From positions 40,888 through 104,887 of the forward strand of contig DUBO01000014.1 in the NCBI GenBank assembly GCA_012960245.1: a stretch of DNA of 64,000 bases, written 5' to 3'. Numbering within the stretch: position 1 is the stretch's first letter; every line of letters starts with the position of its first letter. Of this stretch, positions 22,401 to 42,539 are shown in pieces. The notes beneath the pieces were generated by a model. That model worked only from the letters and a program-made list of their open reading frames with translations, made no database searches and had not been told where the DNA came from. Position numbers and translations under genes: made by a program. This stretch comes from Candidatus Binatota bacterium (GTDB taxonomy: Bacteria; Desulfobacterota; Binatia; UBA1149).

Positions 22401-22548
22401 TGGCGGCTCAAGGTCGGGCGGCTGTCCCCCGCTCGGGGAAACCAACCCACTCCACCAGAAGACTAGAAAACAATCGCTACTCTTGTCAATGGCTGCGACA
22501 CCACAATCACGCTGGGCCAGCCACTTACCCCCCCGATTGGGTGGTAGC

Positions 22549-23966: not shown

Positions 23967-25526
23967 GTGTACCCCTTCGATAAGCTCGATAAGTTTCCCG
24001 ACAAGGCAGCCCTTGTCATGGCTGGTAGCGGCCGGGCCACCAGCTACGCCCAGCTGGATCGCAGCTCCAACCGCTTCGCGCAGCTGTTGCGACACCTCGG
24101 ACTGGGCCACGACGCAGCCCTGGCCCTGATGATGGAAAACCGTTCCGAGTTCTTCACCGTGTGCTGGGGAGCCCAGCGCTCGGGTCTTTTCTACACACCG
24201 GTGGCCACCCACCTGGCGACCGCTGAGATCGCTTACATCATCAACGACTGCGGTGCGCGGGCCTTCGTGACCAGCGCCGAGCAGGCCGACAACACGGCCG
24301 ACCTGCCCGGACTCTGCCCCGACGTGCAGGCCTGGTTCGTCTGCGGTGGCGAGCTGCCGGGCTATCGGTCGCTTGAAGGCGAGCTCGACGACATGCCCGA
24401 CCACCCCGTGGACGACGAGCTGGAGGGCTGCGAGATGCTCTATTCATCGGGTACCACGGGTTACCCCAAGGGCATACGCAACCCGCTCCCCGATCGCAGC
24501 GTGGGTGCAATCTCGCCGATGGCGGCGGCGCTCGCCGTCGCTTACGGCGCCGACGAGAACACCGTGTACCTGTCGCCCGCCCCGCTGTACCACTCGGCGC
24601 CGCTCAGGTTCAACATGGCCCTGCAGCGACTGGGCGCGACCTGCGTCGTCATGGAAAAGTTCGATGCCAGGAGCGCGGTTCAACTCCTGGGACAACACCA
24701 GGTGACCATGAGCCAGTGGGTACCCACTCACTTCAGTCGCATGCTGCAGCTACCCAAACAGCTGCGAGAGAAGGCCGACCTCTCGAGCCACCGCCTGGCC
24801 CTGCACGCCGCCGCGCCCTGCCCGGTGAGTGTAAAGGAGCAGATGATTAACTGGTGGGGCCCGATACTGACCGAGTTCTACAGCGCCACCGAGGGCAACG
24901 GCGCTACACAGATAAGCAGCGAGGAGTGGCTTGCGCACAAGGGCTCGGTAGGTCGTGAGCTGGGCTGCCGCGTGCACGTGGTCGACGACGATGGTGAGGA
25001 ACTGGCGGCAGGCGAGATCGGCACGGTCTACTTCGAAGGCGGGCGCAGCTTCGAATACCACAACGCCCCCGAAAAAACCGCCGACTCGCTGGACGCTCGC
25101 GGTTGGAGCACCGTGGGAGACATCGGCTATCTCGACGAGGAGGGCTACCTCTACCTCACCGACCGCAAGGCCGACATGATCATATCGGGCGGGGTCAACA
25201 TCTACCCCCAGGAAACCGAGAACTGCCTCCTGGAGCACCCCTTGGTAGCCGACGCGGCCGTGTTCGGGCTGCCCGACAGCGACTTCGGCGAACAGGTAAA
25301 AGCGGTGGTCGAAGCCATTGACCCGCTGGCGGCCAGCGGGCAGCTGGCCGACGAACTCATGGCCTGGTGCCGCGATAAAATATCGCCGCTCAAGTGCCCA
25401 CGCTCCATTGACTTCGTGGACCGCCTGCCGCGCACAGAGGCGGGCAAGCTGAGAAAGCACCTGCTCAAGGCGCGCTATGACCAGGAGCCTTCAGGCCCGG
25501 CCAGCGGGACCGGTCACTCGACGTAG
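23967..25526 (+). CDS. acyl-CoA synthetase (AMP-forming ligase)
   Basis: This 519-residue adenylate-forming enzyme activates a carboxylic acid to its CoA thioester. Motifs in order: P-loop YSSGTTGYPKG; YSATEGNG; GWSTVGDIGYLDEEGYLYLTDR with the ATP/ribose-binding Asp; GVNIYPQETE; and the catalytic Lys region TEAGKLRKHL. This is a complete FadD-type protein of normal length. The start is GTG at 23967. It overlaps the convergent Rieske oxygenase gene by 13 bases. With two further ligases nearby, it suggests several acyl substrates or steps. Confidence 0.93.
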   Translation: MYPFDKLDKFPDKAALVMAGSGRATSYAQLDRSSNRFAQLLRHLGLGHDAALALMMENRSEFFTVCWGAQRSGLFYTPVATHLATAEIAYIINDCGARAFVTSAEQADNTADLPGLCPDVQAWFVCGGELPGYRSLEGELDDMPDHPVDDELEGCEMLYSSGTTGYPKGIRNPLPDRSVGAISPMAAALAVAYGADENTVYLSPAPLYHSAPLRFNMALQRLGATCVVMEKFDARSAVQLLGQHQVTMSQWVPTHFSRMLQLPKQLREKADLSSHRLALHAAAPCPVSVKEQMINWWGPILTEFYSATEGNGATQISSEEWLAHKGSVGRELGCRVHVVDDDGEELAAGEIGTVYFEGGRSFEYHNAPEKTADSLDARGWSTVGDIGYLDEEGYLYLTDRKADMIISGGVNIYPQETENCLLEHPLVADAAVFGLPDSDFGEQVKAVVEAIDPLAASGQLADELMAWCRDKISPLKCPRSIDFVDRLPRTEAGKLRKHLLKARYDQEPSGPASGTGHST

Positions 25527-26455
25527 AACTTGCTGGCCCAGCGACGCAGGTCGCCAATGGGACCATCGCCGTCGCAGAGTATCGGCTTCTCGAGGTGCAC
25601 CTTGTTTTCCCAGATGGGGATGTCCTGGCCGAACTGGCGCTCAATTTCGCCGACAAAAGCCTTGCCCACCCCGCTGGTAGTACTCTCGTCGCCGAGCTTG
25701 CGCAGCGCACACGACAAGTGCATGTGAACGTACTCGTCGTCCACCGGTGTTCCCGAGGTCATGACCAGGGTTTCAACGACGCCCTTGAAGCGCGTGCAGC
25801 CAAAACCGAGACCGTAGGTACGAATGTCTATCGTGCCGTCGGCTTCGCCCTTGGATGTATCCACCCTCGACTGGCAGATCACGTTGAGAAAATACCCGTC
25901 CGAATCCACAACGTCTGTGGTGGCGATGTTCTTCGTGCCGTGCACGTATAAAAAGTGAGCGGCGTCGACAGTGTTCTCGGCCAGCTCCTGGTTGCGCGAC
26001 TTCACCATCCAGTCGCGCCGGGTCCACTCGGTCCAGGCCGGGTCGCCATACTCGGGTAGATCGGGGATCTCCCACTCGGGCGGCTCACCCAGGGGGTGGT
26101 ACCAGGCCATGATGATGCCGTTTTTTTCGCACACCGGCAGCGCCTCCACGGCAGCCTTGGGGGGAATGCGCTTGCAGTAAGGGATGTCCACGCAGCGGCC
26201 GTCTTCGGGCGAAAAACTCCAGTGGTGAAAGGGGCAGCGCAGACCCTGCTCGGTCACCTCACCACCATGCCCGATGTGCGCGCCCAGGTGGGGGCAGAAA
26301 GCGTCAAAGACCCGGGCCGTGCCCGCCATGTCGCGAAACAGGACGAGCTCACGGCCAAAGTAGTGTATCGGTTTCAGCTCGCCGACCCCGATTTCGTCGG
26401 AGTACGCGACCTGGTACCAGCTGAAAGGCAGCGGAAACGGAAACTCCCTATCCAT
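25514..26455 (-). CDS. Rieske non-haem iron oxygenase (KshA-like)
   Basis: This 313-residue terminal oxygenase has a Rieske [2Fe-2S] cluster bound by CPH (CPHLGAHIGHGG) and CPFH. The mononuclear iron site is ENTVDAAHFLYVHG (D-x2-H-x4-H). Size and motif style are closest to 3-ketosteroid 9-alpha-hydroxylase and related ring oxygenases. The ATG at 26455 fits the family start; an in-frame GTG at 26473 is possible. It is the last gene of the TetR/P450/fusion operon, 22 nt after the fusion gene. No reductase partner is in this window, so electrons must come from elsewhere. A second paralogue is at 52437. Confidence 0.92.
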   Translation of the reverse strand: MDREFPFPLPFSWYQVAYSDEIGVGELKPIHYFGRELVLFRDMAGTARVFDAFCPHLGAHIGHGGEVTEQGLRCPFHHWSFSPEDGRCVDIPYCKRIPPKAAVEALPVCEKNGIIMAWYHPLGEPPEWEIPDLPEYGDPAWTEWTRRDWMVKSRNQELAENTVDAAHFLYVHGTKNIATTDVVDSDGYFLNVICQSRVDTSKGEADGTIDIRTYGLGFGCTRFKGVVETLVMTSGTPVDDEYVHMHLSCALRKLGDESTTSGVGKAFVGEIERQFGQDIPIWENKVHLEKPILCDGDGPIGDLRRWASKFYVE

Positions 26456-26477
26456 TTTTTTTCTAACTCCCACTGGG

Positions 26478-29400
26478 TCAGGCGATCATGTCACCTATAT
26501 TACGAAGTTTTTCGAGTACGTCGTCGGGCAACACCGGCGGCGGCTTTCCTACCGCGTGCGAGCCCAGTATGACCTCGCAGCTGCGTTCTATAACCGACGC
26601 CATGTCGGCCGCCCGCCTGAGGCTACGGCCGGCGACCAGCAGACCGTGGTTGACCAGCATAACGGCCCAGCTGTCTTTCATGGCCTCGGCCACCGCGTCG
26701 GCGAGTTCAACGGTGCCCGGCATGATGAAGGGCACCCGCGGTATCTCGCCAAAAAACGCAGCCTCGGTAGACACGGGCACGAAGGGCAAGCCGCTGTTGG
26801 CCAGCACCGTGGCGTTGGCCGCGTGGCAGTGTATGACCGCTTCGGCCTCCGGCTTCACCCGGTAGACCACCGCGTGCATGAGGCGCTCGCTTGACGGCGA
26901 ACGGGCACCCGAATCCACGGGATCGCCGTCGAGATCGATGCGCACCAGCTGCGAAAGATCCAGCTTGCCCTTGAAAGACTGGCTGGGGGTAATCCAGAGT
27001 TCATCGGCACCCGCGCTCACCCTCGTGGTCACGTTGCCGCCGGTGGCCGTGATCAGGCCGCTCGCGTAAAGCTCGTCCACCACCTCGCACAGTGCCGTGG
27101 CTGCCTCGCCGCCGTCAGCTCCCAGATCCGCGGTTCCACTTCCATGGCTTCGGCCGTTTTCCGCCGTCGTCGGGACGGCCAGGGCCGACAGGTCGCCCAG
27201 GTCGCCGGCTTCCTCGCGCGCGGCCTTGTAAGTGGCCGCCAGCAGGGGCTCGAGGTGCTGCAGGGTCATCGCCTTGCCGGCGTCACCGGTAAAAGACAGG
27301 CGGCCGTCCATGGCAGCCTCCATGGCGTTGAGTTCGCCACCGAACATTCCGTCGAATATGGCAGCGCCCATGCTCAAGCGCACGTCGGCTCCTCCCACAA
27401 TGGCCCCCAGGCCCGCGCTCGCGCCATCGGCCGCAAGCTGCAGGTGAAAGGTCAGGGCGAGGTCATGCAACTCGAACTGCATCGTGACCTGGTTGTTCTC
27501 GGCCTCGGCTGCCAACTCTTCGCTGGCAGAAACAGCCCTTCCCCAGGCCTCCAACTGTCTGCTCATACCCTCGCGTAGATCGGCAGCGGCGGCGGACAGC
27601 TCGGCCGCTTTATCGTCTTCTTCAACGGCGGCGTCTTCAACGACGGCGTCATCGGCGCCAGGCTTCTCACGCTGGAGATCAGAAACCGCCGGACCAGCCT
27701 TTGCGAGCAAGCCTGCTATTTCTTCATCGCCCGGTTCACGACGGTCGGCCGACCAATCAAAGTCGGCCAGGACCTCGGGGTTCAAGCAGTGCCGCGGCGC
27801 TGAGCCTGCCGCCATGAGTTCGAGTTCGTCGGCGATGATGCGACCCTGGTGCACGGCGATCTCGGCCGTGTTGCCGCCGAGGTGGGGAGTCGCAATGACG
27901 TTGGCCATGGCCAGCAACGGATGGTCGGAAGCCGGCGGCTCCTCGGCAAACACATCGAGCCCCGCGCCGCCAAGCCTCCCGTCGCGCAGCGCTTCCACCA
28001 GCGCCTCTTCGTCGACGAGAGCCGCCCGCGCCGTGTTGATCAGCATCGCACCCGGCTTCATGGCCGCTAGTCGCTCGGCGTTTATCATTCCGCGGGTCTG
28101 GTCATTGACCGCAGCGTGCAGGCTCACCACGTCCGAGCGCTCCAGCAGCTCTTCGAGGCCCAACAGCTCGGCATCGTGGCGGGCCGCCTCCATGGCGTCC
28201 ACTGCCGGGTCGGACACGAGCACGCGACAGCCGAAACCGCGCAGCCGCCGCGCGACCTCGCGCCCTACCGCCCCCAGGCCCACCAGTCCGACGGTCAGGT
28301 TCCACAGCTCTACGCCGCGGAACAGGCTGAAGGCCTGCCCCATGCGACCCATGTCGCCCGCCACCGAGCCCGGTTGCCTGAGGAAATCGCCACCCGCGGC
28401 GCTGCAACGGGCCAGCGACAACATGAATGACACCGCCAGGTCGGCCACGGCTACAGCGTTGCGTCCCGGCGCGTTGAGCACCGGTACGCCAAAAGCGCTG
28501 CAGGCATCGAGATCGATGTTGACCGGATCGTTACGACAGCTCACCACCACCCTCAGGCCCGGCGTGTCACGCAGTACCGTGGCATCGACAAGGTCGACCT
28601 CGGTTACAAAAACATCGTGATCGCCAAGCGCGTCTACCAGGGCAGCGCCGGTGAGCAGTCGCATGCTGCTGCGAAAATCCGAGTACTCCAGCTCTCCCAA
28701 CCGCGCCAGGCGGGCAAGCGATTCCTCGTCAAACTGGGCGGTGACCAGGAGGCTGGGCGTCAACTTCTTCTTGCGCGCCACGCCCGCCGCCTCGCCGGCC
28801 TCGAGCATGGCAGTAGTCAGCGCGCCCACGGCATCGCCATCCGCCGCCGGTGCTTGCTCGCTACGGCCCTTCCACCTGCCATAGACCTGCAGCATGGTCG
28901 CGACTTCCGCTCTCTCGGCCACCACGGTCGCGGCCAGCGGAGCAGCCTGGGCGGTTTCGGCCAGGTCGGTAAATACCCCGACCCCTGCGCCCGCACACAG
29001 CGCCGCGCCCATGGCTCCCGATTCGCAAGCACTGGCCGCGTGCACGGGGAGGTCGGTGACCTGGGCCAGCAGTTCGGGCCAGAGGCTGCTGCGCAACATG
29101 CCACCCGAGACCCTCAACAGTTCGGGTTGGTTGTGACTCAGGTCACACACGCGCTCGGCGTTGGCCCGCACACCGCAGGCCATACCCTCTACGAGAGCGC
29201 GTGCCACGTCGCGCCTCGGATCATCGCCGGGAACGCCCACCAGGTGACTCAGCAGCAGTTCTCCGACGGGCAGGCCAGGTGATTTCCAGTCGATGAGGTG
29301 GGCGCCCAGGCTCGACTGCATACCGCGTGCGCCGGCAACAGAAGCAGCCGCCTCGGCAAACAATCGTTCCACGGGCCTCGGCGAATCAGCGAAGAGCAGG

Positions 29401-30338
29401 CGCGCGGCCCACTCCAGGGATTCACCCATCGGACCGCCGTTGCTCTCGAGCACCCACAGGCCCGGCACCGCGTGGTGCGAAGTCCATAGCGCACCGTCGG
29501 GGTCAGTGACCGGCACGTCCATCACCAACTGAACGGGCAGCGAGCTGCCCGTGACAGCACACAACTCGCCGGCCTCGACGCAGGCCGCGGCCAGCAAGGC
29601 CGACTGCGAGTCGGCGGCTCCCACGGCCACAGTGGTGCCCTCGGCCAGCCCCAGCTTCTCGGCGGCCAGTGGACCCAGCTCGCCCAGCTGCGAGCCAGCG
29701 TCGAGAGGATCGGGGAAAATATCGCGGGGAATCCCCAGCCTCCCTATCCAGTCCGCACACCAGCCACGCTGGTTAAGCGAGAACAGTAGAGTTTCGCTCG
29801 CCTGCGAGGCCTCGTAGCCCGCGTTGCCGGTCATCCAGAAACCCAACCAGTCACTGGCCGACAACACGTGGGCGGTTTGTTCAATCAGCGCAGGCTGCGC
29901 CTTCAGCAGCTGCAGCAGACGCGGTCCGGGTTGTATCGCGGTCGGCCAGTGGCCGGTCACCCCCAGCAGCTCTGCGCCGTGCTGCTCCCCCAGCTCCATG
30001 GCTTCGAGCGCCGCGCGCGCGTCACGATTCGAAGCCGCCAGCAATACCTCGCCGGTCGAGTCGACAAGAACCATGGCGTGACGCGTAGCCGTGGCCGCAA
30101 CCGCCACTACATCGTCGGGCCCGGCCCCTGCCTCGGCCAGCGCCGCCCGCACGGCCTCGCCCATGCGATCGATTACGAGCCCGGTGTCCAGCTCCACCTG
30201 CAATCCGGCGCCACCCTCCACCACCACGGGCGGGCAAGGGCGCGACGCCCCGTGAACGCGACCGCTCTCGGGGTCGAACAACAGGCAGCGCACACCGCCT
30301 CCGCCCATGTCCAATCCTGCCAGGTAACGTCCGCCCAC
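26478..30338 (-). CDS. fused FGGY kinase / 2-hydroxyacid dehydrogenase / SCP2 / class II aldolase
   Basis: This single 1,286-residue frame has four recognisable enzyme or binding parts. Residues 5-490 are an FGGY carbohydrate kinase (GLDMGGGGVRCLLFD; catalytic Asp in GAADSQSAL, about 243; SGGMLRSSLW). Residues 520-855 are a D-2-hydroxyacid/phosphoglycerate-type dehydrogenase (NAD loop GLVGLGAVGREVA, about 685; Arg602; His819 in TPHLGG). After an acidic linker, residues 950-1045 are an SCP2 sterol-carrier-like domain. Residues 1078-1286 are a class II aldolase/adducin domain (TATGGNVT; zinc ligands in HCHAAN, His1170/1172, and NHG, His1231). All key residues seem intact. B. subtilis YoaC/YoaD and FucK/FucA are separate-gene analogues. 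GTG start, 2 nt after the P450 stop. The substrate is unknown. Confidence 0.92.
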   Translation of the reverse strand: MGGRYLAGLDMGGGGVRCLLFDPESGRVHGASRPCPPVVVEGGAGLQVELDTGLVIDRMGEAVRAALAEAGAGPDDVVAVAATATRHAMVLVDSTGEVLLAASNRDARAALEAMELGEQHGAELLGVTGHWPTAIQPGPRLLQLLKAQPALIEQTAHVLSASDWLGFWMTGNAGYEASQASETLLFSLNQRGWCADWIGRLGIPRDIFPDPLDAGSQLGELGPLAAEKLGLAEGTTVAVGAADSQSALLAAACVEAGELCAVTGSSLPVQLVMDVPVTDPDGALWTSHHAVPGLWVLESNGGPMGESLEWAARLLFADSPRPVERLFAEAAASVAGARGMQSSLGAHLIDWKSPGLPVGELLLSHLVGVPGDDPRRDVARALVEGMACGVRANAERVCDLSHNQPELLRVSGGMLRSSLWPELLAQVTDLPVHAASACESGAMGAALCAGAGVGVFTDLAETAQAAPLAATVVAERAEVATMLQVYGRWKGRSEQAPAADGDAVGALTTAMLEAGEAAGVARKKKLTPSLLVTAQFDEESLARLARLGELEYSDFRSSMRLLTGAALVDALGDHDVFVTEVDLVDATVLRDTPGLRVVVSCRNDPVNIDLDACSAFGVPVLNAPGRNAVAVADLAVSFMLSLARCSAAGGDFLRQPGSVAGDMGRMGQAFSLFRGVELWNLTVGLVGLGAVGREVARRLRGFGCRVLVSDPAVDAMEAARHDAELLGLEELLERSDVVSLHAAVNDQTRGMINAERLAAMKPGAMLINTARAALVDEEALVEALRDGRLGGAGLDVFAEEPPASDHPLLAMANVIATPHLGGNTAEIAVHQGRIIADELELMAAGSAPRHCLNPEVLADFDWSADRREPGDEEIAGLLAKAGPAVSDLQREKPGADDAVVEDAAVEEDDKAAELSAAAADLREGMSRQLEAWGRAVSASEELAAEAENNQVTMQFELHDLALTFHLQLAADGASAGLGAIVGGADVRLSMGAAIFDGMFGGELNAMEAAMDGRLSFTGDAGKAMTLQHLEPLLAATYKAAREEAGDLGDLSALAVPTTAENGRSHGSGTADLGADGGEAATALCEVVDELYASGLITATGGNVTTRVSAGADELWITPSQSFKGKLDLSQLVRIDLDGDPVDSGARSPSSERLMHAVVYRVKPEAEAVIHCHAANATVLANSGLPFVPVSTEAAFFGEIPRVPFIMPGTVELADAVAEAMKDSWAVMLVNHGLLVAGRSLRRAADMASVIERSCEVILGSHAVGKPPPVLPDDVLEKLRNIGDMIA

Positions 30339-30340
30339 GA

Positions 30341-31603
30341 TCAGCTCTCCCGCCCTGTCTCAAAAACCACCGGCAGCGCCGACGGCGCCCGAAAAACCTG
30401 TCCGCTCACGAAGACCTCGCCCGCCGAGGGATCCAGCGCGAGTCCGGGAAGGCGGTCGAGCACGGCGTTGAGCAACACGTGGGTCTCCATTCGGGCCAGG
30501 TGTATTCCCAGGCAAGCGTGGGTGCCGAAGGCAAAACCCAGGTGCTGTTTGAACTTGCGCGTCACGTCGAAACGATCGGGATCTTCAAAGCGCTTGGGGT
30601 CGCGATTGGCTGCCGCCATGTTGACGTGCACCACCGCGCCGGCCGGAATCTCGACACCCTGCACGGTAACGTCGGCCGTGGTCATGCGCATTATACCGGT
30701 CAACGGGGGATCCCAACGCACGCCCTCCTCTATAGCGTGGGGCAGCAGGTCTCGGTTGGCCCTGAGCAATTCGAGCTGGTCGGGGTTGTTGAGCAGCCCG
30801 CACAGCAGGTTGCTCGACGACCGGTAGGTGGTCTCGGCACCGGCCGGAGCGAGCAGCCGGAGGAAGGAATAGATGAGCTCGTCTTCGAGACGCTCGCCTT
30901 CCACCTCGGCGCTTGCCAGCACGCTGATGATGTCGTCGCCAGGCTCAGCCCTCCTGCCCCGTAGCAGGTCGGCAAAGAGATCGCGCAGCGATTGCGACGC
31001 CCGCAGCGCGCCGTCGTAGTCTATGGTGACGCTGACCAGCTCCACGGCCAATCGGTGAAAATCACGGAGACGATCAGCCGGCACACCCATCATTCCGGCG
31101 ATCACCGTTACCGGGAACGGAAACGTCAGCTCACGCACCAGGTCGGCGCTGCCGCGCTCTGCGAAACCGTCGATCAAGCCGTTGATCGTTTCGGCCACCA
31201 ACCCCGTCTCCCAGGATTCCAGGGCGCGGCGACTGAAGGCCTGGCTGAGCAGTTTACGGTGAACCGTGTGATCGGGCGGGTCCATCTCCAGTATGGTGCG
31301 ACCGAGTACCGGTCCCATCGTGATGGCGTAACCGCTGGAGGTAAAGTTACGCGAGTCGGCGAGGATGTCGTGAACGGCATCGTAGCTCACGGCCGACCAG
31401 ATCTTGAAACCCTCGGGTGCCTTGTGCCCCCCGGACATGAACTCCTGGTCGCCGGTCCATTCACGCGGGTCGACTTCGAGTACCGGCCCCATCCTGCGCA
31501 ACTCCGCCCAGCGGGTGTAGGGGTCGCGCACGGTACCGACCCCCTGGGCCTTGTTAAAGCGTTCGAAGGCGTCTGGCCCTGTTTCTTGGTTTGGCTTGGT
31601 CAC
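30341..31603 (-). CDS. cytochrome P450
   Basis: This 420-residue soluble bacterial P450 has the I-helix AGAETT oxygen-activation motif, a K-helix ExxR (EEGVRWDPP), and the haem loop FAFGTHACLG with the Cys thiolate ligand. The substrate cannot be read from sequence; class I bacterial P450s near TetR and acyl-CoA genes often hydroxylate steroids, terpenes or fatty acids. Its GTG start overlaps the TetR stop (GTGA) and its own stop is 2 nt before the fusion-gene start, so the operon is tightly coupled. No ferredoxin or ferredoxin reductase gene is adjacent. Confidence 0.94.
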   Translation of the reverse strand: MTKPNQETGPDAFERFNKAQGVGTVRDPYTRWAELRRMGPVLEVDPREWTGDQEFMSGGHKAPEGFKIWSAVSYDAVHDILADSRNFTSSGYAITMGPVLGRTILEMDPPDHTVHRKLLSQAFSRRALESWETGLVAETINGLIDGFAERGSADLVRELTFPFPVTVIAGMMGVPADRLRDFHRLAVELVSVTIDYDGALRASQSLRDLFADLLRGRRAEPGDDIISVLASAEVEGERLEDELIYSFLRLLAPAGAETTYRSSSNLLCGLLNNPDQLELLRANRDLLPHAIEEGVRWDPPLTGIMRMTTADVTVQGVEIPAGAVVHVNMAAANRDPKRFEDPDRFDVTRKFKQHLGFAFGTHACLGIHLARMETHVLLNAVLDRLPGLALDPSAGEVFVSGQVFRAPSALPVVFETGRES

Positions 31604-32292
31604 TTGCTTCTCCCTGGCTTTGGAGGCCGTTCGGCCCGCGCCGGTCTTGTTCTCACCGCGAGCCCGGTCCCCATCAACCGCCTGGCGGTCCTCAGTACCT
31701 CGTGACGATGGGCTTCTACCTGCGCCGGTTCAAGGGGGTCAAAGTCGCCCGAAGGCATGAGCGCCGGCATTGCTACGAACAAGAACAGCGTGGCACCGGC
31801 GACACTGGCCACCATGTGAGCCGGATCCACGTCGATGCGCGACAACAACGGGTCGCCCGAGTTCTCGGACGCGAAACGCTCGACAATTTTTTGTGCCTCG
31901 CCCCTGTGCTCGACCATACCGGGCAGGCCATCGCCGCCGGCATCGGCCAACTCGCGCAGTAACACCCGCGCAAAGGTCGGTCGCGCGGCCACGAAATCCA
32001 CCCAGCCCACCACCGCTGCCTCCAGCCTCTCAACAACGTCGCCTGGACCGAACAACGCCGACTCGAGGCCCACGGCGTACTCGGCAAACATGTCCGCGAG
32101 CACGGTGTGGTAGAGCTCTCTCTTGTCGCGGAAGTAGTAAACGATAGAGGCCCGGCGGATACCCACCTCACTGGCAACATCTTCCAGGCGCGCACGGTCG
32201 AAGCCCTGCTCGGCAAAAACGCGTTCGGCTGCCTGCAGTATGGCGACGCGGGTGCTGTTGCCCCGCTCACTGGAAGGAAGGACGGCCACCAC
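31600..32292 (-). CDS. TetR/AcrR-family transcriptional regulator
   Basis: This 230-residue repressor-type protein has an N-terminal helix-turn-helix (TRVAILQAAERVFAEQGFDRARLEDVASEVGIRRASIVYYFRDKRELY) and an all-alpha ligand-binding C-terminal domain. It is the first gene of its coupled run with the P450. The start is GTG at 32292, and a perfect 20-bp palindrome lies 4 bp upstream, so autoregulation of this operon is likely. Ligands of such regulators next to P450 and ligase genes are often acyl-CoAs or the substrate; here unknown. The last 20 residues are basic and proline-rich. Confidence 0.92.
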   Translation of the reverse strand: MVAVLPSSERGNSTRVAILQAAERVFAEQGFDRARLEDVASEVGIRRASIVYYFRDKRELYHTVLADMFAEYAVGLESALFGPGDVVERLEAAVVGWVDFVAARPTFARVLLRELADAGGDGLPGMVEHRGEAQKIVERFASENSGDPLLSRIDVDPAHMVASVAGATLFLFVAMPALMPSGDFDPLEPAQVEAHRHEVLRTARRLMGTGLAVRTRPARAERPPKPGRSK

Positions 32293-32296
32293 ACTT

Positions 32297-32316
32297 TCTA
32301 CCTGCGCGCAGGTAGA
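32297..32316. promoter_or_regulatory. perfect 20-bp palindromic operator candidate (TetR)
   Basis: The half-site TCTACCTGCG is followed directly by its exact reverse complement. The palindrome lies between the end of the acyl-CoA ligase gene (32321) and the TetR start (32292). Perfect palindromes of this length are typical TetR-family operators. Because it sits 4 bp from the GTG, the promoter either overlaps it, giving a leaderless or very short leader, or lies upstream within the ligase gene. Confidence 0.75.
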
Positions 32317-32320
32317 TTTG

Positions 32321-34018
32321 TCAAGCCCCGCCCCGCCCGGCCTTGAAAAGATCCTGTAATTGCCCGACTAGAGCCGATTTTTTGATCTTTCCGCTGTCGG
32401 TCATGGGCAGCTCGTTTTCACCGAGAAAAAAGATCTGCCGGGGTAGCTTGTAGGCTGAAAGCTCGTCGCGCAGGGCTGCCAGCAACTGCTCGCCGTCGAG
32501 CTCCACGCCCTGCTTGAGCAACACGACAGCCGCGACAGTCTGCCCCCGGTCGGGGTCGGGCAGGCCCACCACGTGCGCCGCCTTCACCCCGTCCACGGCC
32601 TCGAGCAGCACTTCCACCTCGCGCGGTGACACGTTGGCGCCACCTGTCTTGATCACGTCGCCCAGGCGGCCCTCGAAAAACAAGTGGCCCTGCTCGTTGA
32701 AGCTGCCGCCGTCACCGGTGTGGTACCAGCCCGCCTCATCGAACACGCTATCGCGCTGCTGCTTGTACAAACCCTGCATGAGGCTGTAGCCGCGAACGCA
32801 GATCTCCCCAGCCTCGCCCGCGCTCTTTTCACCCGCGCTCCTGTCGTTCATGCCGGCCAGCTCGAGACCGCTGTCGGGGTCGACCAGCTTGTGCTCGAGC
32901 CCGGGCACCGGGCAACCGAACGACCCCCGCAGGCTATCGGGCAGGTCAACTGTCATGTCGTACATAGTGTGCGGCCCGCCGGTCTCGGTCATGCCCAGCG
33001 AGTTGGCCCTCAGCTCAGGATCCTCGGGCGCGACCCCCGGGGGCAACAGGTCGTAGACGTTGCCACCGCGAAGCGAGGAAAGATCCCTGCCGGCAAAACT
33101 CTCGTGGTCGGCCATGGCCTTGCCGTAATGCGGCCAGCCGGTGACGAAGGTCGCCCGCTCATGTTCGAGCAGGTCGAGAGTGCGCCCGGGTTCAAAACTC
33201 TCCTCGCAGAGCAGGCAGGAGCCCGCGTGCATGGCCGCCAGCAGCGCAAATACGAAGCCGCCTACCCAGAAGAACGGCATGGGCGAGTACAGCCTGTCGT
33301 CGGCCCGCAGCCCACGAAACGTGTTGAGATTGAACGCGTGCAGCAACAGTGAGCCCTGGCCGTGCACCGCACCCTTGGGATCGGCCGTGCTGCCCGAACT
33401 GTAGACCACGAGCATCGGGTCGCTTGTTTCTACGCTGTCCTCCACGCGGCTGAGAAACCCTTCGTCCTGTTCGGGGACATCGCCCGATTCGGCCAGTTCT
33501 TCGACAGCGCCCGCCAACCACTTCCGGCGCCCGTCACCCCAGGCGTATACCCTGCGCAACATCGGCAACTCGGGAAGCAACAGCAGCTCTGCGTTTTCGG
33601 CCGCGGTGAGCGAGGGCGCCGCCTCCTCGAGTCGAGCCAGGTAGTCGTGGCCGAGAAAGGAATCTACGCAGAGCAACAACTGCACGTCGGCGTGGCGAAG
33701 CATCCAGCCCAACTCGCGGGCCTTCGAAAAAGTATTGAGCGGCACCAGCAGGGCTCCCAGCCTCGCCACGGCCAACCAGGCCACCACCCACGCGGGTCCG
33801 TTGGGCGCCAGCAGGCCCACCCTGCTGCCCTTGCCAACCCCGGCAGCCAACAGGCCCCGCGCCAGGCGAGCCGACTCGCGCTCGGCCTCGAGATAGCCAA
33901 GACGGCTATCGGCCGTAACCACGAAGTCACGCTGCCCGTGCAAGCTGACCTGCCGACGCAGAAAAGCCGGCACGGTTGCCTTGAAGTCCAGCACCGGGAT
34001 CTCACCGCTTGAATACAT
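32321..34018 (-). CDS. acyl-CoA synthetase (AMP-forming ligase)
   Basis: This 565-residue adenylate-forming ligase has the P-loop YSSGSTADPKG (one of the less common GST variants), GWYHTGDGGSFNEQGHLFFEGR, GGANVSPREVE and a catalytic Lys in TDSGKIKKSAL. The ATG at 34018 is preceded by AGG six bases upstream; a longer frame lacks family similarity. It ends 28 nt before the TetR gene, with the palindromic operator in that gap. It is divergent from the acyl-CoA dehydrogenase at 34129. It likely activates the pathway acid to its CoA ester. The ligase at 43759 looks like a closer relative than the one at 23967. Confidence 0.92.
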   Translation of the reverse strand: MYSSGEIPVLDFKATVPAFLRRQVSLHGQRDFVVTADSRLGYLEAERESARLARGLLAAGVGKGSRVGLLAPNGPAWVVAWLAVARLGALLVPLNTFSKARELGWMLRHADVQLLLCVDSFLGHDYLARLEEAAPSLTAAENAELLLLPELPMLRRVYAWGDGRRKWLAGAVEELAESGDVPEQDEGFLSRVEDSVETSDPMLVVYSSGSTADPKGAVHGQGSLLLHAFNLNTFRGLRADDRLYSPMPFFWVGGFVFALLAAMHAGSCLLCEESFEPGRTLDLLEHERATFVTGWPHYGKAMADHESFAGRDLSSLRGGNVYDLLPPGVAPEDPELRANSLGMTETGGPHTMYDMTVDLPDSLRGSFGCPVPGLEHKLVDPDSGLELAGMNDRSAGEKSAGEAGEICVRGYSLMQGLYKQQRDSVFDEAGWYHTGDGGSFNEQGHLFFEGRLGDVIKTGGANVSPREVEVLLEAVDGVKAAHVVGLPDPDRGQTVAAVVLLKQGVELDGEQLLAALRDELSAYKLPRQIFFLGENELPMTDSGKIKKSALVGQLQDLFKAGRGGA

Positions 34019-34128
34019 AAAAAACCTGCTCCCCGCCCCTATGCACTTGCACCATGTGCGACCACCGATATAGCTTCGCGCACGGGTATCCGTCAAATCG
34101 ATGGTTAGAGGAGCCCCGAAACAAGCAG

Positions 34129-35274
34129 ATGGAATTCGCGTGGAGCAAGGAAGACCAGGGGTTCAGGAAGGACCTGGTGGCATTTCTCGAAAGCGAGCTA
34201 CCCGACGACTGGCAGGAGATTTCGCGCGAAGGGCCGGGTAGCGACGCCCAGGCCGAGTTCTCACTTGGGTTCTGCGCGGCGCTGGCCGCGCGTGGTTGGC
34301 TCACGCCCCACTGGCCGACCGAGTACGGGGGCAAATCTGCCACCTCGTGGAGTCACGCCGTGCTGGGTGAAGAGTTGTGGTCACGCGGAGAGCCCCGCGG
34401 CCCGCAGTACATGAACGTCAACTGGATCGGCCCCACGATAATGGAGCACGGCAGCGATGAGCAGAAGGCGCTGCACCTGCCCGCCATAAGCGAGGGCCGG
34501 GTGCTGTGGTGCCAGGGCTTCTCCGAACCCGAAGCGGGCAGCGACCTGGTCGCGCTGCGCACATCGGCGGTAGCCGACGGCGACGACTACGTCATCAACG
34601 GCAGCAAGATCTGGACGTCCTACGCCAACCACGCCGACTACTGTTTTCTCCTCGTGCGCAGTGACCCCGAGTCGAGCCGCCACCACGGCCTGTCGGTCAT
34701 CCTGCTCCCCATGGACAGCGAGGGCATAGAGATACGCGAGATACCGTCGGTGGTTGGCAAGCGTTACTTCCACGAGCTCTTCTTCACCGACGTGCGCGTG
34801 CCGAGGAGCTGCCTGCTCGGCGAGGAAGGCGAGGGCTGGAAAACCGTGAGCTATTCGTTGCAGTACGAACGAGTGGGCGCACCGCGCTACGCGCGTGCCA
34901 CGGTTACCCTCGACCGGCTGGCCGGGCTTGCCAGGCAAAAAGGCCTGCTCGACGATCCCACCGTGGCCGAGAAGCTCGGCCGGGCCCGGGCCGCCTGCGA
35001 AGCCGCGCGAGTGCTCAGCTACAGGGTAATAGACCAACGCGCGCACGGTCTGCCGCCCAGCGCCGACACCAACGTGGCACGCATAGCGGGCACCCGGGTG
35101 GACAAGCTGGTGGGCGACCTCGCCCTCGAACTCACCGGCAGCTCGGGCCTCGAGGCGGGGACCTTTGCCAACGCTAATTTCAAACTAGCCATGACCGCCG
35201 GTGTCGCCGTGGGCGCCACCGAGGTACAGCTCAACCTCGTGGCCAGCCGCTTGCTGGGCCTGCCCCGCGAGTAG
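34129..35274 (+). CDS. acyl-CoA dehydrogenase (full-length)
   Basis: This 381-residue FAD enzyme oxidises acyl-CoA at C-alpha/C-beta. The N-terminal helical domain has LPDDW..GLG-type and WLTPHWPTEYGGK motifs. The FAD-contact segment is WCQGFSEPEAGSDLVALRTSA, then NGSKIWTS. The C-terminus is GATEVQLNLVASRLLGLP, where the usual GTSEI/YEGT pattern is changed, so the catalytic base may come from elsewhere. This resembles the large subunit of actinobacterial steroid-type FadE heterotetramers. The ATG at 34129 was chosen; upstream frames lack family content. It starts a five-gene plus-strand run to 39253. Confidence 0.9.
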   Translation: MEFAWSKEDQGFRKDLVAFLESELPDDWQEISREGPGSDAQAEFSLGFCAALAARGWLTPHWPTEYGGKSATSWSHAVLGEELWSRGEPRGPQYMNVNWIGPTIMEHGSDEQKALHLPAISEGRVLWCQGFSEPEAGSDLVALRTSAVADGDDYVINGSKIWTSYANHADYCFLLVRSDPESSRHHGLSVILLPMDSEGIEIREIPSVVGKRYFHELFFTDVRVPRSCLLGEEGEGWKTVSYSLQYERVGAPRYARATVTLDRLAGLARQKGLLDDPTVAEKLGRARAACEAARVLSYRVIDQRAHGLPPSADTNVARIAGTRVDKLVGDLALELTGSSGLEAGTFANANFKLAMTAGVAVGATEVQLNLVASRLLGLPRE

Positions 35275-35321
35275 ACCGCCGAGCTGGCAAAAGAACGCTG
35301 GACACAGAAACGAGCAATACG

Positions 35322-36284
35322 ATGGATTTTGAACTGAACCCGGAACAGGGAGCCCTGCTCGACGCCGCCGAAACCTTGCTCACACGCTCGGCGGGAACCG
35401 CGCGGGCCGAGCAACTGGCGGCGCTTTCCGACGCCGGCGAGCAGTCGGCTGATGGCTACGACCACGAGCTCGAACGCGCTCTCAACGACGCGGGTTTTAC
35501 CGGCGTTGCGCTGGTCGACGGCATGGGGCCCCTCGAGGCCACCCTGCTCACCAGCGCCATTGCTCGGCAGGCCGGCTGCGTGAGCTTCGGCGCCAACGCC
35601 ATCGTGGCCGCCCAACTGCTCGGGCGCACCATAGATGGCCCGGTCGCGCTGGCCGACACCGCCCTGCCCGGCCCCGTACGCTTTGCGGCCCAGGCAGTGT
35701 GCCTGCTGGTGGCCGACGGAGAACAGCTGCGAATAATCGAAACGCCGGCTGCCGGCCTGACCGATGTGGACAGCAATTTTGGCTACCCGATGGCCACCCT
35801 ACCTGCCGAGCTACTGGCGGCCGGCGACATCGTGGAAGGTGTAAGCGCCCATCGCATGCGCGCCTGGTGGCAGCTCGCCGCCTCGGCCGAGGCCGTCGGC
35901 TGCATGCAGGCTGCGCTGTCGTTTACCATTGATTACCTGAAAAACCGCCGCCAGTTCGGTCGCAGTATAGCCTCATTCCAGGCCGTCCAGCACCGCCTGG
36001 CCAACTGCGCGGTGATGGTAGAATCGGCGCGCTGGCTCTGCGCGGAAACCGCCTCGCGCAATGCGCCAGGCGAAGCCGCCGCCGCGACCGCTACCCACAC
36101 CATGGAAGCTGCCACGCTGTTGTTCGACGACACCCACCAGCTGAGCGGAGCCATCGGCTTTACCACCGAGCACGCGCTGCACCACTGGACCATGCGATTG
36201 CAGACCCTCAAGCTCGAACTGGGCGGCGCCGGCGCCCACGCGCGCAGCCTGGCCAGGCTTCGCTGGACGGACGCCGAGGGCTGA
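35322..36284 (+). CDS. short acyl-CoA dehydrogenase-like subunit
   Basis: This 320-residue protein has the acyl-CoA dehydrogenase fold, but shorter, with a weak middle domain. It keeps RRQFGRSIASFQAVQHRLANCAVMV (FAD/adenine side of the C-terminal helical domain) and ends in a helical segment (AIGFTTEHALHHWTMRLQTLKLELG). It lacks the SEPEAGSD motif that is clear in the gene before. In mycobacterial steroid side-chain degradation, one such short subunit pairs with a full-length one to make an alpha2-beta2 enzyme; a similar pairing with the 34129 gene is inferred. It begins 48 nt after that gene. Confidence 0.82.
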   Translation: MDFELNPEQGALLDAAETLLTRSAGTARAEQLAALSDAGEQSADGYDHELERALNDAGFTGVALVDGMGPLEATLLTSAIARQAGCVSFGANAIVAAQLLGRTIDGPVALADTALPGPVRFAAQAVCLLVADGEQLRIIETPAAGLTDVDSNFGYPMATLPAELLAAGDIVEGVSAHRMRAWWQLAASAEAVGCMQAALSFTIDYLKNRRQFGRSIASFQAVQHRLANCAVMVESARWLCAETASRNAPGEAAAATATHTMEAATLLFDDTHQLSGAIGFTTEHALHHWTMRLQTLKLELGGAGAHARSLARLRWTDAEG

Positions 36285-36292
36285 GACAAGTC

Positions 36293-37258
36293 GTGGCCAT
36301 AGATTTCGACTTCGACCCCGTCGAGCAGGCCATGGCCGACAGCGTGGCCGCGTTCTGCCACGACCGCGTTGACGCGGAGCTGCTCAGGGTCGCCGCCGAC
36401 GAGTTCCCCTTGCCGCTGTGGAAGGACATGGCGGCGCTCGGGATACTCGAACTTGCCTGCCCCGACAGCGGAGGTAGCGCCTCGGCGCTGTGCGCTGTCA
36501 GCGAACAACTCGGCCGGGCTGCTTTTCCGGGACCGCTTGCCGCCTGCGTGCTGGGTGCCGCCGTACTCGACAAAAAAGAACGAGCAGGAATCATTGCCGG
36601 CAAGGAGCTGGTGTCGCTGGCCGAGCCGCCCCTGCTTCCCTGGGGACCGCTGGCGACCCACTTCCTGGTCGTAGAAGACGGGGTCGTCCTGCGGGCCGAC
36701 GCGCCCCCCGACATGCAGACCAGCAGCACGCTGGGCGGCGAGCCCTGGGGTCGCGCGGCGATCGAGGGCAACGCCGCGCTTGCCGACAGCGATCGCGGGC
36801 TGGGCCTGTACCTGCTCACGCTAGCGGCCTGGCAGGCCGCCGCCGGCCGACGGTTGGTTGAAATGGCTGCCGAGCACGCCTCAACCCGGCAGCAGTTCGG
36901 ACGCCCCATAGCATCGTTCCAGGCGGTGGCGCACCCCCTGGCCGACAGCGTCATACGACTGGACGCCTCGACTGCGCTGGCACGCTCGGCGGCATTCGCC
37001 CTGGACACCGGGGCCGACGACGCGATGGTCGCGCTGCTGCGTGCGCGCGCTTCGGCCGACCGGGCGGCAGTTGCCGCGGCCCGGACCTGTCACCAGGTCT
37101 TCGGCGCGCTGGGGGTCAGTCTCGAAGGGCCCGTGTTCAACTACTCGCGACGCATGCTGCAAGCGGCCTCATTGCCGCCCAATGCCGGCTGGACAATGCG
37201 GCGGCTCGCCGAAGCGGCCGGGCTGCCTCCGACAAGCCTCGCGGACGCGGCGGGATGA
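36293..37258 (+). CDS. short acyl-CoA dehydrogenase-like subunit
   Basis: This 321-residue member of the same short class as the gene before it has FDPVEQAMADSVAAFCHDRV at the N-terminus, TRQQFGRPIASFQAVAHPLADSVIRLDASTALARS in the C-terminal domain, and HQVFGALGVSLEGPVFNYSRRML at the end. It lacks the SEPEAGSD stretch. It starts with GTG at 36293, only 9 nt after the previous gene, so the two short subunits are likely co-translated. It could partner with the dehydrogenase at 38138 or at 34129. Confidence 0.82.
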   Translation: MAIDFDFDPVEQAMADSVAAFCHDRVDAELLRVAADEFPLPLWKDMAALGILELACPDSGGSASALCAVSEQLGRAAFPGPLAACVLGAAVLDKKERAGIIAGKELVSLAEPPLLPWGPLATHFLVVEDGVVLRADAPPDMQTSSTLGGEPWGRAAIEGNAALADSDRGLGLYLLTLAAWQAAAGRRLVEMAAEHASTRQQFGRPIASFQAVAHPLADSVIRLDASTALARSAAFALDTGADDAMVALLRARASADRAAVAAARTCHQVFGALGVSLEGPVFNYSRRMLQAASLPPNAGWTMRRLAEAAGLPPTSLADAAG

Positions 37259-37265
37259 TAAAAGC

Positions 37266-38138
37266 ATGACGGTAAAATACGGCATAGACCTGGACGCACC
37301 GATGGACGGGCTGCTCTATGAAAAAGCTGGCGGAGTTGCCCGCCTGACCATCAACCGGCCCGAACGAGCCAACTCGTTGACGCCCGCGATGCAGCACATG
37401 TTCAGGGCAGCGTGGGAGGACCTGCGCGACGATGACTCGGTACGCGTGGCCATAATTTCGGCAGCCGGTGACCGCCACTTCTGCACCGGCTTCGATGTCG
37501 GCGAAGCCGAGGGTGACCAGGGCGACGATGTCTTCCGCGACGCGCCACTGGCCGAGTCGGTGTTCTGGTCGCCGCGACAGAACGACGTCTGGAAACCGGT
37601 CATCTGCGTGGTCAACGGCCTGTGCGTGGGCGGCGGCCTTCACTTCGTCGTGGACGCCGACATCACGGTGGCCACGCGTAACGCTGCCTTTCTCGACGCC
37701 CACGTCAACGTGGGCATGGTAGGCGCGCTCGAAAATATAGGCCTGGCCAGGCGGCTGCCCCTGGGCACGGCGCTGAGGATGACGCTGGTGGGGCGCGACT
37801 ACCGCCTGTCGGCCGAACGCGCGTGGCAGCTGGGCCTGGTCGACGAACTGGCCGACGACCGTGCCGCCGCCCATACGATCGCCAACACGATGGCGACCTC
37901 GATGCTCGCCAACTCGCCCGCCGCCATGTACGCGTCCAAGCGCGCGCTGTGGCAGTCGATGGAAATGGGTTACACCGAGGCTCTCGAATCGGGCTGGGAC
38001 CTTCTGCGCGCACACTGGAAGCACCCTGATTTCAAGGAAGGCCCGAGGGCCTTTACCGACAAGCGCCCGCCGCGCTGGAACCCCGACCCTTCGGCCTCGT
38101 CTGACGATGACGGCAAGCCGAGCGGAGACGAGGACTGA
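37266..38138 (+). CDS. enoyl-CoA hydratase/isomerase (crotonase) family protein
   Basis: This 290-residue crotonase-fold protein has LTINRPERANSLTP at the N-terminus, the oxyanion segment FCTGFDVGEAEG and VNGLCVGGGLHFVVDADITVATRNAAF. The first catalytic Glu of standard hydratases is replaced by His here (GGGLHFV), and the second Glu region (VGMVGALENIGLARRL) also differs. It may therefore catalyse another crotonase reaction, such as ring cleavage, thioester hydrolysis or isomerisation, rather than hydration. ATG at 37266, 7 nt after the previous gene. The stop shares a base with the next gene's ATG (TGATG). The acidic C-terminal tail (SSDDDGKPSGDED) is unusual. Confidence 0.87.
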   Translation: MTVKYGIDLDAPMDGLLYEKAGGVARLTINRPERANSLTPAMQHMFRAAWEDLRDDDSVRVAIISAAGDRHFCTGFDVGEAEGDQGDDVFRDAPLAESVFWSPRQNDVWKPVICVVNGLCVGGGLHFVVDADITVATRNAAFLDAHVNVGMVGALENIGLARRLPLGTALRMTLVGRDYRLSAERAWQLGLVDELADDRAAAHTIANTMATSMLANSPAAMYASKRALWQSMEMGYTEALESGWDLLRAHWKHPDFKEGPRAFTDKRPPRWNPDPSASSDDDGKPSGDED

Positions 38139-39253
38139 TGGAGCTCTCTTTCACCGCCGAGCAGGAAAACTTCCGCGCCGAACTGCGTGAGTTTCTTACT
38201 GACTGGAGTGAGCTCGAGGGTTTCCTGCTGCAGGGAACCAAGTGGAAGCAAGTCAGCCAGTTGTTCAAGGCAATGGCCGGCCGGGGTTGGCTGTCAATGT
38301 CCTGGCCACGGCAATACGGCGGCCTGGAGCGCGGACCAGCCTGGGAGTACCTGCTCTGGGACGAGATGGCGCGGGCACGCGCGGCGCGCAATCCCCTGTC
38401 TGCCGGTATCGTCGCGCGCACGCTGATACGCCACGGCAGCGAGGAACAGAAAACCCAATGGCTGCCGGCCATCCGCAGCAGCGAGCTGCACTTTGCACTC
38501 GGCTATTCAGAGCCCGAAGCCGGCAGCGACCTTGCCAGCCTGCGGTGCAAGGCCACACCCCGAAAAGACGGATACGTGATCGAAGGGCAGAAATGCTGGC
38601 AGTCCTACGCCGACGACATGGACTGCCTGTGGCTGCTCGCGCGCACGGGTGAGCAGGATGACCGGGCCCGCGGGCTGAGCCTGTTCATCGTCGACCTTGA
38701 CGCGCCGGGTGTAAGCGTGAAGCCCATCCCCATAATGGACGGCGACTCTCTCAACGAAATTTTTCTTGACGGCGTCCACGTCACTGCTGATCGCCGGGTC
38801 GGCCCCGAAAACGGGGCCTGGGCCATAATGGGCGAAGCCCTGGCCGACGAACGCCACATACAGTTTCCCCCCGGCCGCCTGCAGCGCGACCTGGCCGAGG
38901 CAATTGATTGGTTCAGTTCCCGCGGACTCGCCGACGACCCCCTGGTCAGACACCGCGTGGCCGAGCTTTCGCTGCTGGTAGAAGAAGCGCGCGTACACGC
39001 ACTGCGCGTGCTGGCGCTGATGGAAAAGGGACAGCCTGCTGGCGTAGAAGCGGCGGCCAACAAGGTGGCACACACCGATGCCTGCCAGGCCATAGCCCGT
39101 GCGCTGGTTGAACTGGGTGGTCCCGAAGCGCTGCTGCACGGCAGCCGACCCGAATTGCTCTACCTGGTATCAACCTGGGAAAGCATAGGTGGGGGTAGCT
39201 CAGAAATAATGAGGGGTATCGTCGCCAGGCAGGGCCTGGGACTCGGTCTCTAG
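38138..39253 (+). CDS. acyl-CoA dehydrogenase (full-length)
   Basis: This 371-residue dehydrogenase begins MELSFTAEQENFRAELREFL. It has GYSEPEAGSDLASLRCKA in the FAD/substrate domain, GQKCWQSYADDMDCLWLLARTG and a C-terminal IGGGSSEIMRGIVARQGLGL. The GGSSEI pattern is the usual FAD-binding end of this family. It starts one base inside the crotonase stop and is the last gene of the plus-strand run. The following 32 bp leads into a strong hairpin that terminates the convergent RRM gene. Confidence 0.9.
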   Translation: MELSFTAEQENFRAELREFLTDWSELEGFLLQGTKWKQVSQLFKAMAGRGWLSMSWPRQYGGLERGPAWEYLLWDEMARARAARNPLSAGIVARTLIRHGSEEQKTQWLPAIRSSELHFALGYSEPEAGSDLASLRCKATPRKDGYVIEGQKCWQSYADDMDCLWLLARTGEQDDRARGLSLFIVDLDAPGVSVKPIPIMDGDSLNEIFLDGVHVTADRRVGPENGAWAIMGEALADERHIQFPPGRLQRDLAEAIDWFSSRGLADDPLVRHRVAELSLLVEEARVHALRVLALMEKGQPAGVEAAANKVAHTDACQAIARALVELGGPEALLHGSRPELLYLVSTWESIGGGSSEIMRGIVARQGLGLGL

Positions 39254-42372: not shown

Positions 42373-42539
42373 ATCAGCCTCCCCCGGAACAGCCCGAGAC
42401 ACTCTCAGGCAGCCCCACCAGTGTCAATGGAAAAATCCAGCGACTGCCGTTGGTCTGGTCACAGCCCACACACAACGCTATCCAAGAGCAGCAACGGCAA
42501 CGGCCACCGGCAAGCCGACCACGAGGAGGCCCCACACCA

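Follow-up and report, generated by a model that had tools for sequence, protein, structure and literature searches.

In a 64,000-nucleotide stretch of contig DUBO01000014.1 (hereafter the window), derived from a Candidatus Binatota bacterium, a single minus-strand gene joins an FGGY kinase, a D-2-hydroxyacid dehydrogenase, a sterol-carrier-like (SCP2) domain and a class II aldolase in one protein of 1,286 residues. This four-part protein is real and conserved and is built from known parts, with what would be three consecutive enzyme steps and a lipid-binding domain kept in one polypeptide across bacteria whose labels span four or more phyla. The frame starts with GTG at position 30338 and is open over all 1,286 codons, and every Pfam domain in it exceeds its curated cut-off. 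This confirms the four parts read by the first-pass annotation, made without database searches, with the strand corrected to minus. FGGY_N (96.8 bits; cut-off 28.8) and FGGY_C (52 bits; cut-off 27) were both matched in 25/25 proteins. After a search for the same architecture in other genomes, which that annotation had suggested, 24 homologues (43-51% identical to the window's protein) were scanned together with the window's own, and all four domains were present in each of these 25 proteins.

The weakest domain match is that of SCP2 (39.1 bits versus a cut-off of 21.3), and its assignment was confirmed by the predicted fold. Modelled alone with AlphaFold2 (AF2) from an alignment of 26 sequences, the domain has a predicted local distance difference test score (pLDDT) of about 95 throughout, and the best structural match of this model is the human SCP2-like domain of MFE-2 (8af3; Z 13.5, root-mean-square deviation 2.2 over 112 residues). 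The model also matches the SCP2-like C-termini of the alkylsulfatases SdsA1 and Pisa1, and the Alkyl_sulf_C family is matched in 16 of the 25 four-part proteins. A model of residues 500-1286 has a mean pLDDT of 82, the two linkers that flank SCP2 being predicted with low confidence, and a predicted template modelling score of only 0.53, so that the relative placement of the domains is not readable from it.

The statement that all parts keep their key residues held for the catalytic residues checked, which are all present in the window's protein. Alignment to LsrK identified the two kinase aspartates, one in the phosphate-binding hairpin (D10, in 25/25 proteins) and one acting as the catalytic base (D243, in 24/25). 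The GxGxxG motif and the R771/E800/H819 triad of the dehydrogenase are invariant in the 25 aligned proteins, as are the catalytic glutamate E1151 and the zinc histidines H1170, H1172 and H1231 of the aldolase, a domain that also has FucA-like phosphate-site residues (T1099, N1102, S1149 and S1150). The sole exception among the residues checked is the missing D243 in the homologue L086, whose kinase may be inactive; in this gene (L086:3798-7595, plus strand) the position is aligned with an alanine (GGNAIQ).

The gene is carried at 96% identity by a same-genus genome and at 51% identity by a genome of another family in the same order. Carriers belong to the window's class, the Myxococcota, other deltaproteobacterial metagenome-assembled genomes (MAGs), the Chloroflexota and Mycobacterium. 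When named genomes were scanned, Mycobacterium ostraviense, simiae, innocens, attenuatum and persicum proved to have full-length copies, as did Bellilinea caldifistulae and other Chloroflexota; full-length copies also occur in a Myxococcales MAG and several deltaproteobacterial MAGs. The sampled genomes gave (i) strong matches in 7 of 148 from the window's class, one being a three-part form, (ii) 5 of 178 from the genus Mycobacterium, (iii) 4 of 400 from the phylum Chloroflexota, and (iv) 17 of 284 from the phylum of the Myxococcales MAG, some of these matches being partial; the family frequency is about 1-6% in several groups. The first-pass annotation knew of no protein joining all four parts; these counts show that the protein belongs to a family, and a fusion unique to the window lineage, also considered, is ruled out by the full-length copies in other groups. 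In another same-genus genome the gene is in two pieces, as might be expected of an assembly artefact or a chance fusion in one metagenome bin; however, the public contig of that relative has runs of N at the break. Because there is a same-genus copy at 96% identity, and because full-length homologues exist in unrelated genomes including the named Mycobacterium and Bellilinea strains, the gene is no assembly artefact. Independent genomes thereby exclude the one doubt about the junctions voiced at the outset, and we consider this explanation refuted. Comparison of the window with its public 96% relative gave ratios of non-synonymous to synonymous substitution rates (dN/dS) from 0.04 (aldolase) to 0.11 (dehydrogenase) over the four domains, all of which are therefore under purifying selection; the linkers gave 0.18-0.37. 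Two homologues (L030:6840-11792, plus strand; L080:7412-12541, minus strand) have frames that stay open beyond the kinase start for a further 370-420 codons or so in the upstream direction, representing either a real N-terminal extension or merely an open frame in GC-rich DNA.

Searches of the PDB with phmmer gave the autoinducer-2 kinase LsrK as the nearest solved protein of the kinase domain (E 6e-47, over 460 residues), followed by gluconate, glycerol and xylulose kinases, and the autoinducer-2 kinase was also the closest of the NCBIfam kinase models. The kinase misses the LsrK equivalog cut-off (186.7 versus 528 bits), and it differs from LsrK further in being fused to three other domains. 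The dehydrogenase resembles phosphoglycerate dehydrogenases (208 bits versus the 454-bit equivalog cut-off of 3-phosphoglycerate dehydrogenase) and carries RxxPVN and PGRNA motifs, which are shared with dehydrogenases adjoining FGGY kinases in Klebsiella, Sinorhizobium and Paracoccus and missing from two general phosphoglycerate-dehydrogenase-type sequences in the same alignment. A phosphorylated substrate would be in keeping with two invariant arginines, R602 and R626, that lie within these motifs. The aldolase has FucA as its best solved relatives and keeps the zinc- and phosphate-binding residues of FucA, while missing the equivalog and subfamily cut-offs of L-fuculose-1-phosphate aldolase (100.7 and 96.5 versus 264 bits) and scoring 93.5 bits against the OtnC model (cut-off 250). 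The proposed likeness to the FucK/FucA pair was thus half right: the aldolase is FucA-like, whereas the kinase is nearer to LsrK than to FucK, and a dehydrogenase stands in the place of the isomerase.

The closest parallels are sets of separate FGGY kinase, 2-hydroxyacid dehydrogenase and class II aldolase genes in Paracoccus, Sinorhizobium and Klebsiella plasmid records, in which the same families are adjacent and the dehydrogenase motifs are common. These sets differ in being unfused, in having no SCP2 and in sharing only about 36-37% identity with the fused domains; their neighbours are sugar ATP-binding cassette (ABC) transporters in Klebsiella and Sinorhizobium, and CoA-transferase and acyl-CoA synthetase genes in Paracoccus. 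An acid-sugar pathway with OtnC (3-oxo-tetronate 4-phosphate decarboxylase) oxidises, phosphorylates and then cleaves with a class II aldolase fold; the step logic is similar, but the fusion has an FGGY kinase and not one of the OtnK type. Bacillus subtilis YoaD/YoaC, the comparison drawn in the first-pass annotation, is by description also a pair of 2-hydroxyacid dehydrogenase and FGGY kinase, for which we know of no fusion to an aldolase or SCP2. A review guesses at a glycerate or phosphoglycerate role for YoaDC (PMC2885750). In MFE-2 and the alkylsulfatases SdsA1 and Pisa1, SCP2 likewise sits in one chain with an enzyme of hydrophobic substrates, the catalytic domains being entirely different.

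A plain set of these three enzymes is thus encoded unfused in other bacteria, and the four-part protein is that set joined into one chain and supplied with an SCP2 domain. In the dehydrogenase tree, one clade (support 99/98) holds all four-part proteins and the three-part protein of genome G038; its sister (99/96) comprises dehydrogenases from the window's class that stand alone, in gene sets of TetR, dehydrogenase and kinase; a kinase tree, built from a quicker search, gave the same sister pair. A two-part kinase-dehydrogenase fusion occurs in the Actinomycetota, where 12 of 396 sampled genomes match this part, and no SCP2 or aldolase gene was seen within the stretches read at these loci. A quick tree places this fusion at an intermediate point, after the separate genes and before the four-part clade, with a support of 97 for the two-part and four-part proteins together and of 85, which is not strong, for the four-part side. 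The trees support a path from separate genes through a kinase-dehydrogenase fusion to the four-part chain, and the simplest reading would be stepwise fusion followed by spread across phyla through gene transfer. The dehydrogenase-SCP2-aldolase protein of G038 (L039:12706-15492, plus strand), which has a separate kinase about 3 kb upstream, probably arose by kinase loss. Separate genes, two-part, four-part and, by loss, three-part forms together provide a series of intermediates for the origin of a multienzyme protein. The Actinomycetota fusions of FGGY kinase and 2-hydroxyacid dehydrogenase (L112-L121) are mostly 890-1,020 residues long.

Within the window, the minus-strand order is AMP ligase, an 18-bp palindrome, TetR, P450, fusion and KshA-like Rieske oxygenase (Table 1). 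The coupling of the fusion to the P450, TetR and Rieske genes, pointed out in the first-pass annotation, is borne out by the tight junctions, where neighbouring genes are a few bp apart or overlap by 4 bp, and by a putative operator conserved across lineages. The palindrome CTACCTGCGCGCAGGTAG occurs as a single copy per genome in G000, G002, G003, G153, G154, G864 and G884, always before the TetR-(P450)-fusion operon; at the same place, G747 has a variant with one mismatch and G937 a copy with two, while the pattern read backwards was found in 0 of 32 genomes. The sole copy in G151 is some 160 kb away from the fusion, flanked by genes for a related AMP ligase and a TetR (L102:1-2309, plus strand). 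Carriers without this TetR beside the fusion gave no match to the palindrome, such as Mycobacterium and Chloroflexota, and neither did the TetR genes adjoining separate dehydrogenase-kinase pairs in the window's class; as the same operator was not found there, the TetR of these pairs is probably a different regulator. There is strong evidence for a dedicated repressor-operator pair in which TetR would bind the palindrome. The nearest solved relatives of the P450 include the macrolide-tailoring PikC and the steroid C26-monooxygenase CYP142.

Table 1. Positions of the four-part gene, its domains and the surrounding features in the window.
Feature	Position	Strand	Evidence
Four-part gene, 1,286 aa	26478..30338	(-)	Open frame; four Pfam domains; all four also in 24 full-length homologues
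FGGY kinase domain, residues 5-451	28986..30326	(-)	Pfam (FGGY_N 5-249, FGGY_C 367-451); aspartates D10 and D243 present; closest solved protein LsrK 5ya0 (phmmer)
D-2-hydroxyacid dehydrogenase domain, residues 532-853	27780..28745	(-)	Pfam (2-Hacid_dh 532-853, 2-Hacid_dh_C 668-821); R771/E800/H819; CRxxPVN and PGRNA motifs of the kinase-associated subfamily (alignment)
SCP2 (sterol-carrier-like) domain, residues 941-1029	27252..27518	(-)	Pfam (SCP2 941-1029); AF2 model; fold matches
Class II aldolase domain, residues 1082-1257	26568..27095	(-)	Pfam (Aldolase_II 1082-1257); phmmer to FucA; zinc site E1151/H1170/H1172/H1231
Cytochrome P450	30341..31603	(-)	Pfam; directly upstream of fusion; frame ends 2 bp before fusion start codon
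TetR-family regulator	31600..32292	(-)	Pfam; first operon gene; overlaps P450 start by 4 bp
Putative TetR operator, perfect 18-bp palindrome CTACCTGCGCGCAGGTAG	32298..32315	(.)	Just downstream of TTGACA box (32319-32324)
Rieske oxygenase, KshA-like	25514..26473	(-)	Pfam KshA_C 141 bits; PDB KshA 4qdc E 1e-48; directly downstream of fusion
AMP-forming acyl-CoA ligase	32321..34096	(-)	Pfam; upstream of operator; related ligases adjoin fusion in other loci
Divergent acyl-CoA dehydrogenase / enoyl-CoA hydratase genes	34054-35274, 35322-36284, 36293-37258, 37041-38138, 38138-39253	(+)	Pfam; span 34054..39253

A TetR cluster lies beside the fusion at 9 loci, including the window's, and a P450 cluster at 4; acyl-CoA ligases, acyl-CoA dehydrogenases or SCP-x-type thiolases are found near it in other loci. 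Three Chloroflexota genomes, related to one another, encode a beta-glucuronidase that ends in a C-terminal SCP2 domain of its own. This enzyme, which reaches the NCBIfam beta-glucuronidase equivalog (567 versus 544 bits), is located about 1 kb downstream of the fusion (L082:4284-6446, minus strand; also in L083, L093 and L094). Full reading of two of these loci showed a gene for an EamA-type transporter between fusion and glucuronidase and, ahead of the fusion and overlapping it, one for an aldehyde dehydrogenase. Three same-order genomes without the fusion have a glucuronidase 49-51% identical to this one, the match stopping before the SCP2 tail. In Mycobacterium, an aldehyde-dehydrogenase-like gene follows the fusion in 4 of 5 loci. 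We found no description of the four-part fusion or of the glucuronidase-SCP2 fusion in the open-access literature; the parts belong to known families, but the architecture, the operator and the glucuronidase partner appear undescribed in that searchable literature.

Our tentative proposal, which we hold with a confidence slightly short of an even chance, is that the four-part protein is a catabolic enzyme combining three activities with a lipid-binding domain of its own and acting on a hydrophobic molecule with a sugar-like end. The SCP2 domain would hold the hydrophobic part of a molecule carrying a polyol or sugar-acid end, the kinase would phosphorylate its terminal hydroxyl, and the dehydrogenase, with NAD, would oxidise the hydroxyl next to the phosphorylated carbon, replacing the isomerase step of a fucose-type pathway. 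A FucA-type aldolase needs a phosphorylated carbon beside a keto group and a hydroxyl beyond, so that, by family chemistry, kinase and dehydrogenase acting on a terminal polyol would create its substrate without an isomerase; the FucA-like domain would then cut the carbon chain into a triose phosphate like dihydroxyacetone phosphate (DHAP) and a shortened hydrophobic aldehyde. The aldehyde dehydrogenase found in Chloroflexota and Mycobacterium could turn this aldehyde into an acid and an AMP ligase could turn the acid into a CoA ester, after which acyl-CoA dehydrogenases, P450 and Rieske oxygenase would degrade the core, TetR being relieved by the substrate or a breakdown product. SCP2, the glucuronidase-SCP2 partner and the P450, KshA and acyl-CoA genes point to the hydrophobic remainder, although the substrate class, the order of the steps and channelling are what we infer. 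The earlier suggestion of a glycosylated or hydrophobic substrate gains independent support from the SCP2-tailed beta-glucuronidase close to the fusion in the three Chloroflexota genomes. To our knowledge, a hydrophobic, sugar-like substrate class, as predicted for this pathway, is not covered by known sugar pathways. Since the steps are united in a single polypeptide, which in the window lineage is under a unique operator, the pathway could come to light from one expression construct and one screen for inducers.

Several observations weigh against this proposal. None of the fused or separate kinase-dehydrogenase-aldolase sets found has a known substrate, none of the domains of the four-part protein reaches a curated equivalog cut-off, and the homologue L086 is without its kinase aspartate. 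In addition, a plain polyol lipid would not offer the carboxylate that 2-hydroxyacid dehydrogenases usually require, and the glucuronidase arrangement is one evolutionary event, because the three Chloroflexota genomes are closely related. In Bellilinea, the fusion sits behind a sugar regulator of the SorC/DeoR type, scoring against DeoR and LsrR, with a transporter but no lipid genes among the annotated neighbours; for this reason ordinary sugar-acid use stays a serious alternative. Under this explanation, which we regard as quite possible, a common sugar-acid or polyol catabolic set was fused for stoichiometry or channelling, SCP2 only aids assembly or anchors the protein to the membrane, and the enzyme acts on a small, water-soluble molecule. 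It would account for the separate sets found with sugar ABC transporters in Klebsiella and Sinorhizobium and for the Actinomycetota kinase-dehydrogenase fusion, which is without SCP2 and for which no shared lipid-gene partner was seen. It fits less well with the retention of SCP2 in all 25 four-part proteins and its low dN/dS in the window's genus, with the P450, KshA-like oxygenase, acyl-CoA ligase and acyl-CoA dehydrogenase context that recurs in several lineages, and with the presence of another enzyme with an SCP2 tail in the same row of genes in Chloroflexota.

A biosynthetic or tailoring role, in which the aldolase condenses and builds a polyol head on a lipid while P450 and Rieske oxygenase tailor the core, agrees with the relatedness of the P450 to PikC, the reversibility of class II aldolases and the compact operon with its own regulator. 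We nevertheless judge it improbable: the kinase in the same chain points to activation for breakdown, the nearby acyl-CoA dehydrogenases, enoyl-CoA hydratase, CoA ligases and KshA-type oxygenase are catabolic signatures, and no glycosyl- or acyltransferase was seen in the operon. Breakdown of an autoinducer-2-type signal, by phosphorylation with the LsrK-like kinase and then oxidation and cleavage, is very improbable; the closeness to autoinducer-2 kinase and the Bellilinea regulator speak for it, whereas the kinase falls far under the LsrK cut-off, no LsrF/LsrG-type partners or Lsr transporter occur among the annotated neighbours, and many carriers have a lipid-type context.

Within the proposed catabolic role on a hydrophobic molecule, a more specific version, which we think unlikely, is that of a lipid-polyol retro-aldolase: with a membrane lipid or natural-product lipid seated on SCP2, it would shorten the lipid's sugar-like tail, for example the tetrol tail of bacteriohopanepolyol. 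If this tail were phosphorylated at C35, oxidised at C34 and cut between C33 and C32, the products would be DHAP and a C32 hopanoid aldehyde; from the latter, an aldehyde dehydrogenase would make C32 hopanoic acid, a compound common in sediments. Of 28 carrier genomes, only 8 have a hopene cyclase above its cut-off, and the window genome has none, which is uninformative on a hopanoid link; given this count, the hopanoid case would in most carriers mean breakdown of a foreign lipid.

Elsewhere in the window, a 995-aa cysteine-rich protein without a Pfam match, which is probably secreted, is encoded at 19458-22445 (minus strand), and a relative of it directly follows the Rieske gene in G003 (L038:3671-6700). 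A subtilase-family peptidase with a C-terminal DUF7450 repeat is encoded at 40258-42402 (minus strand).

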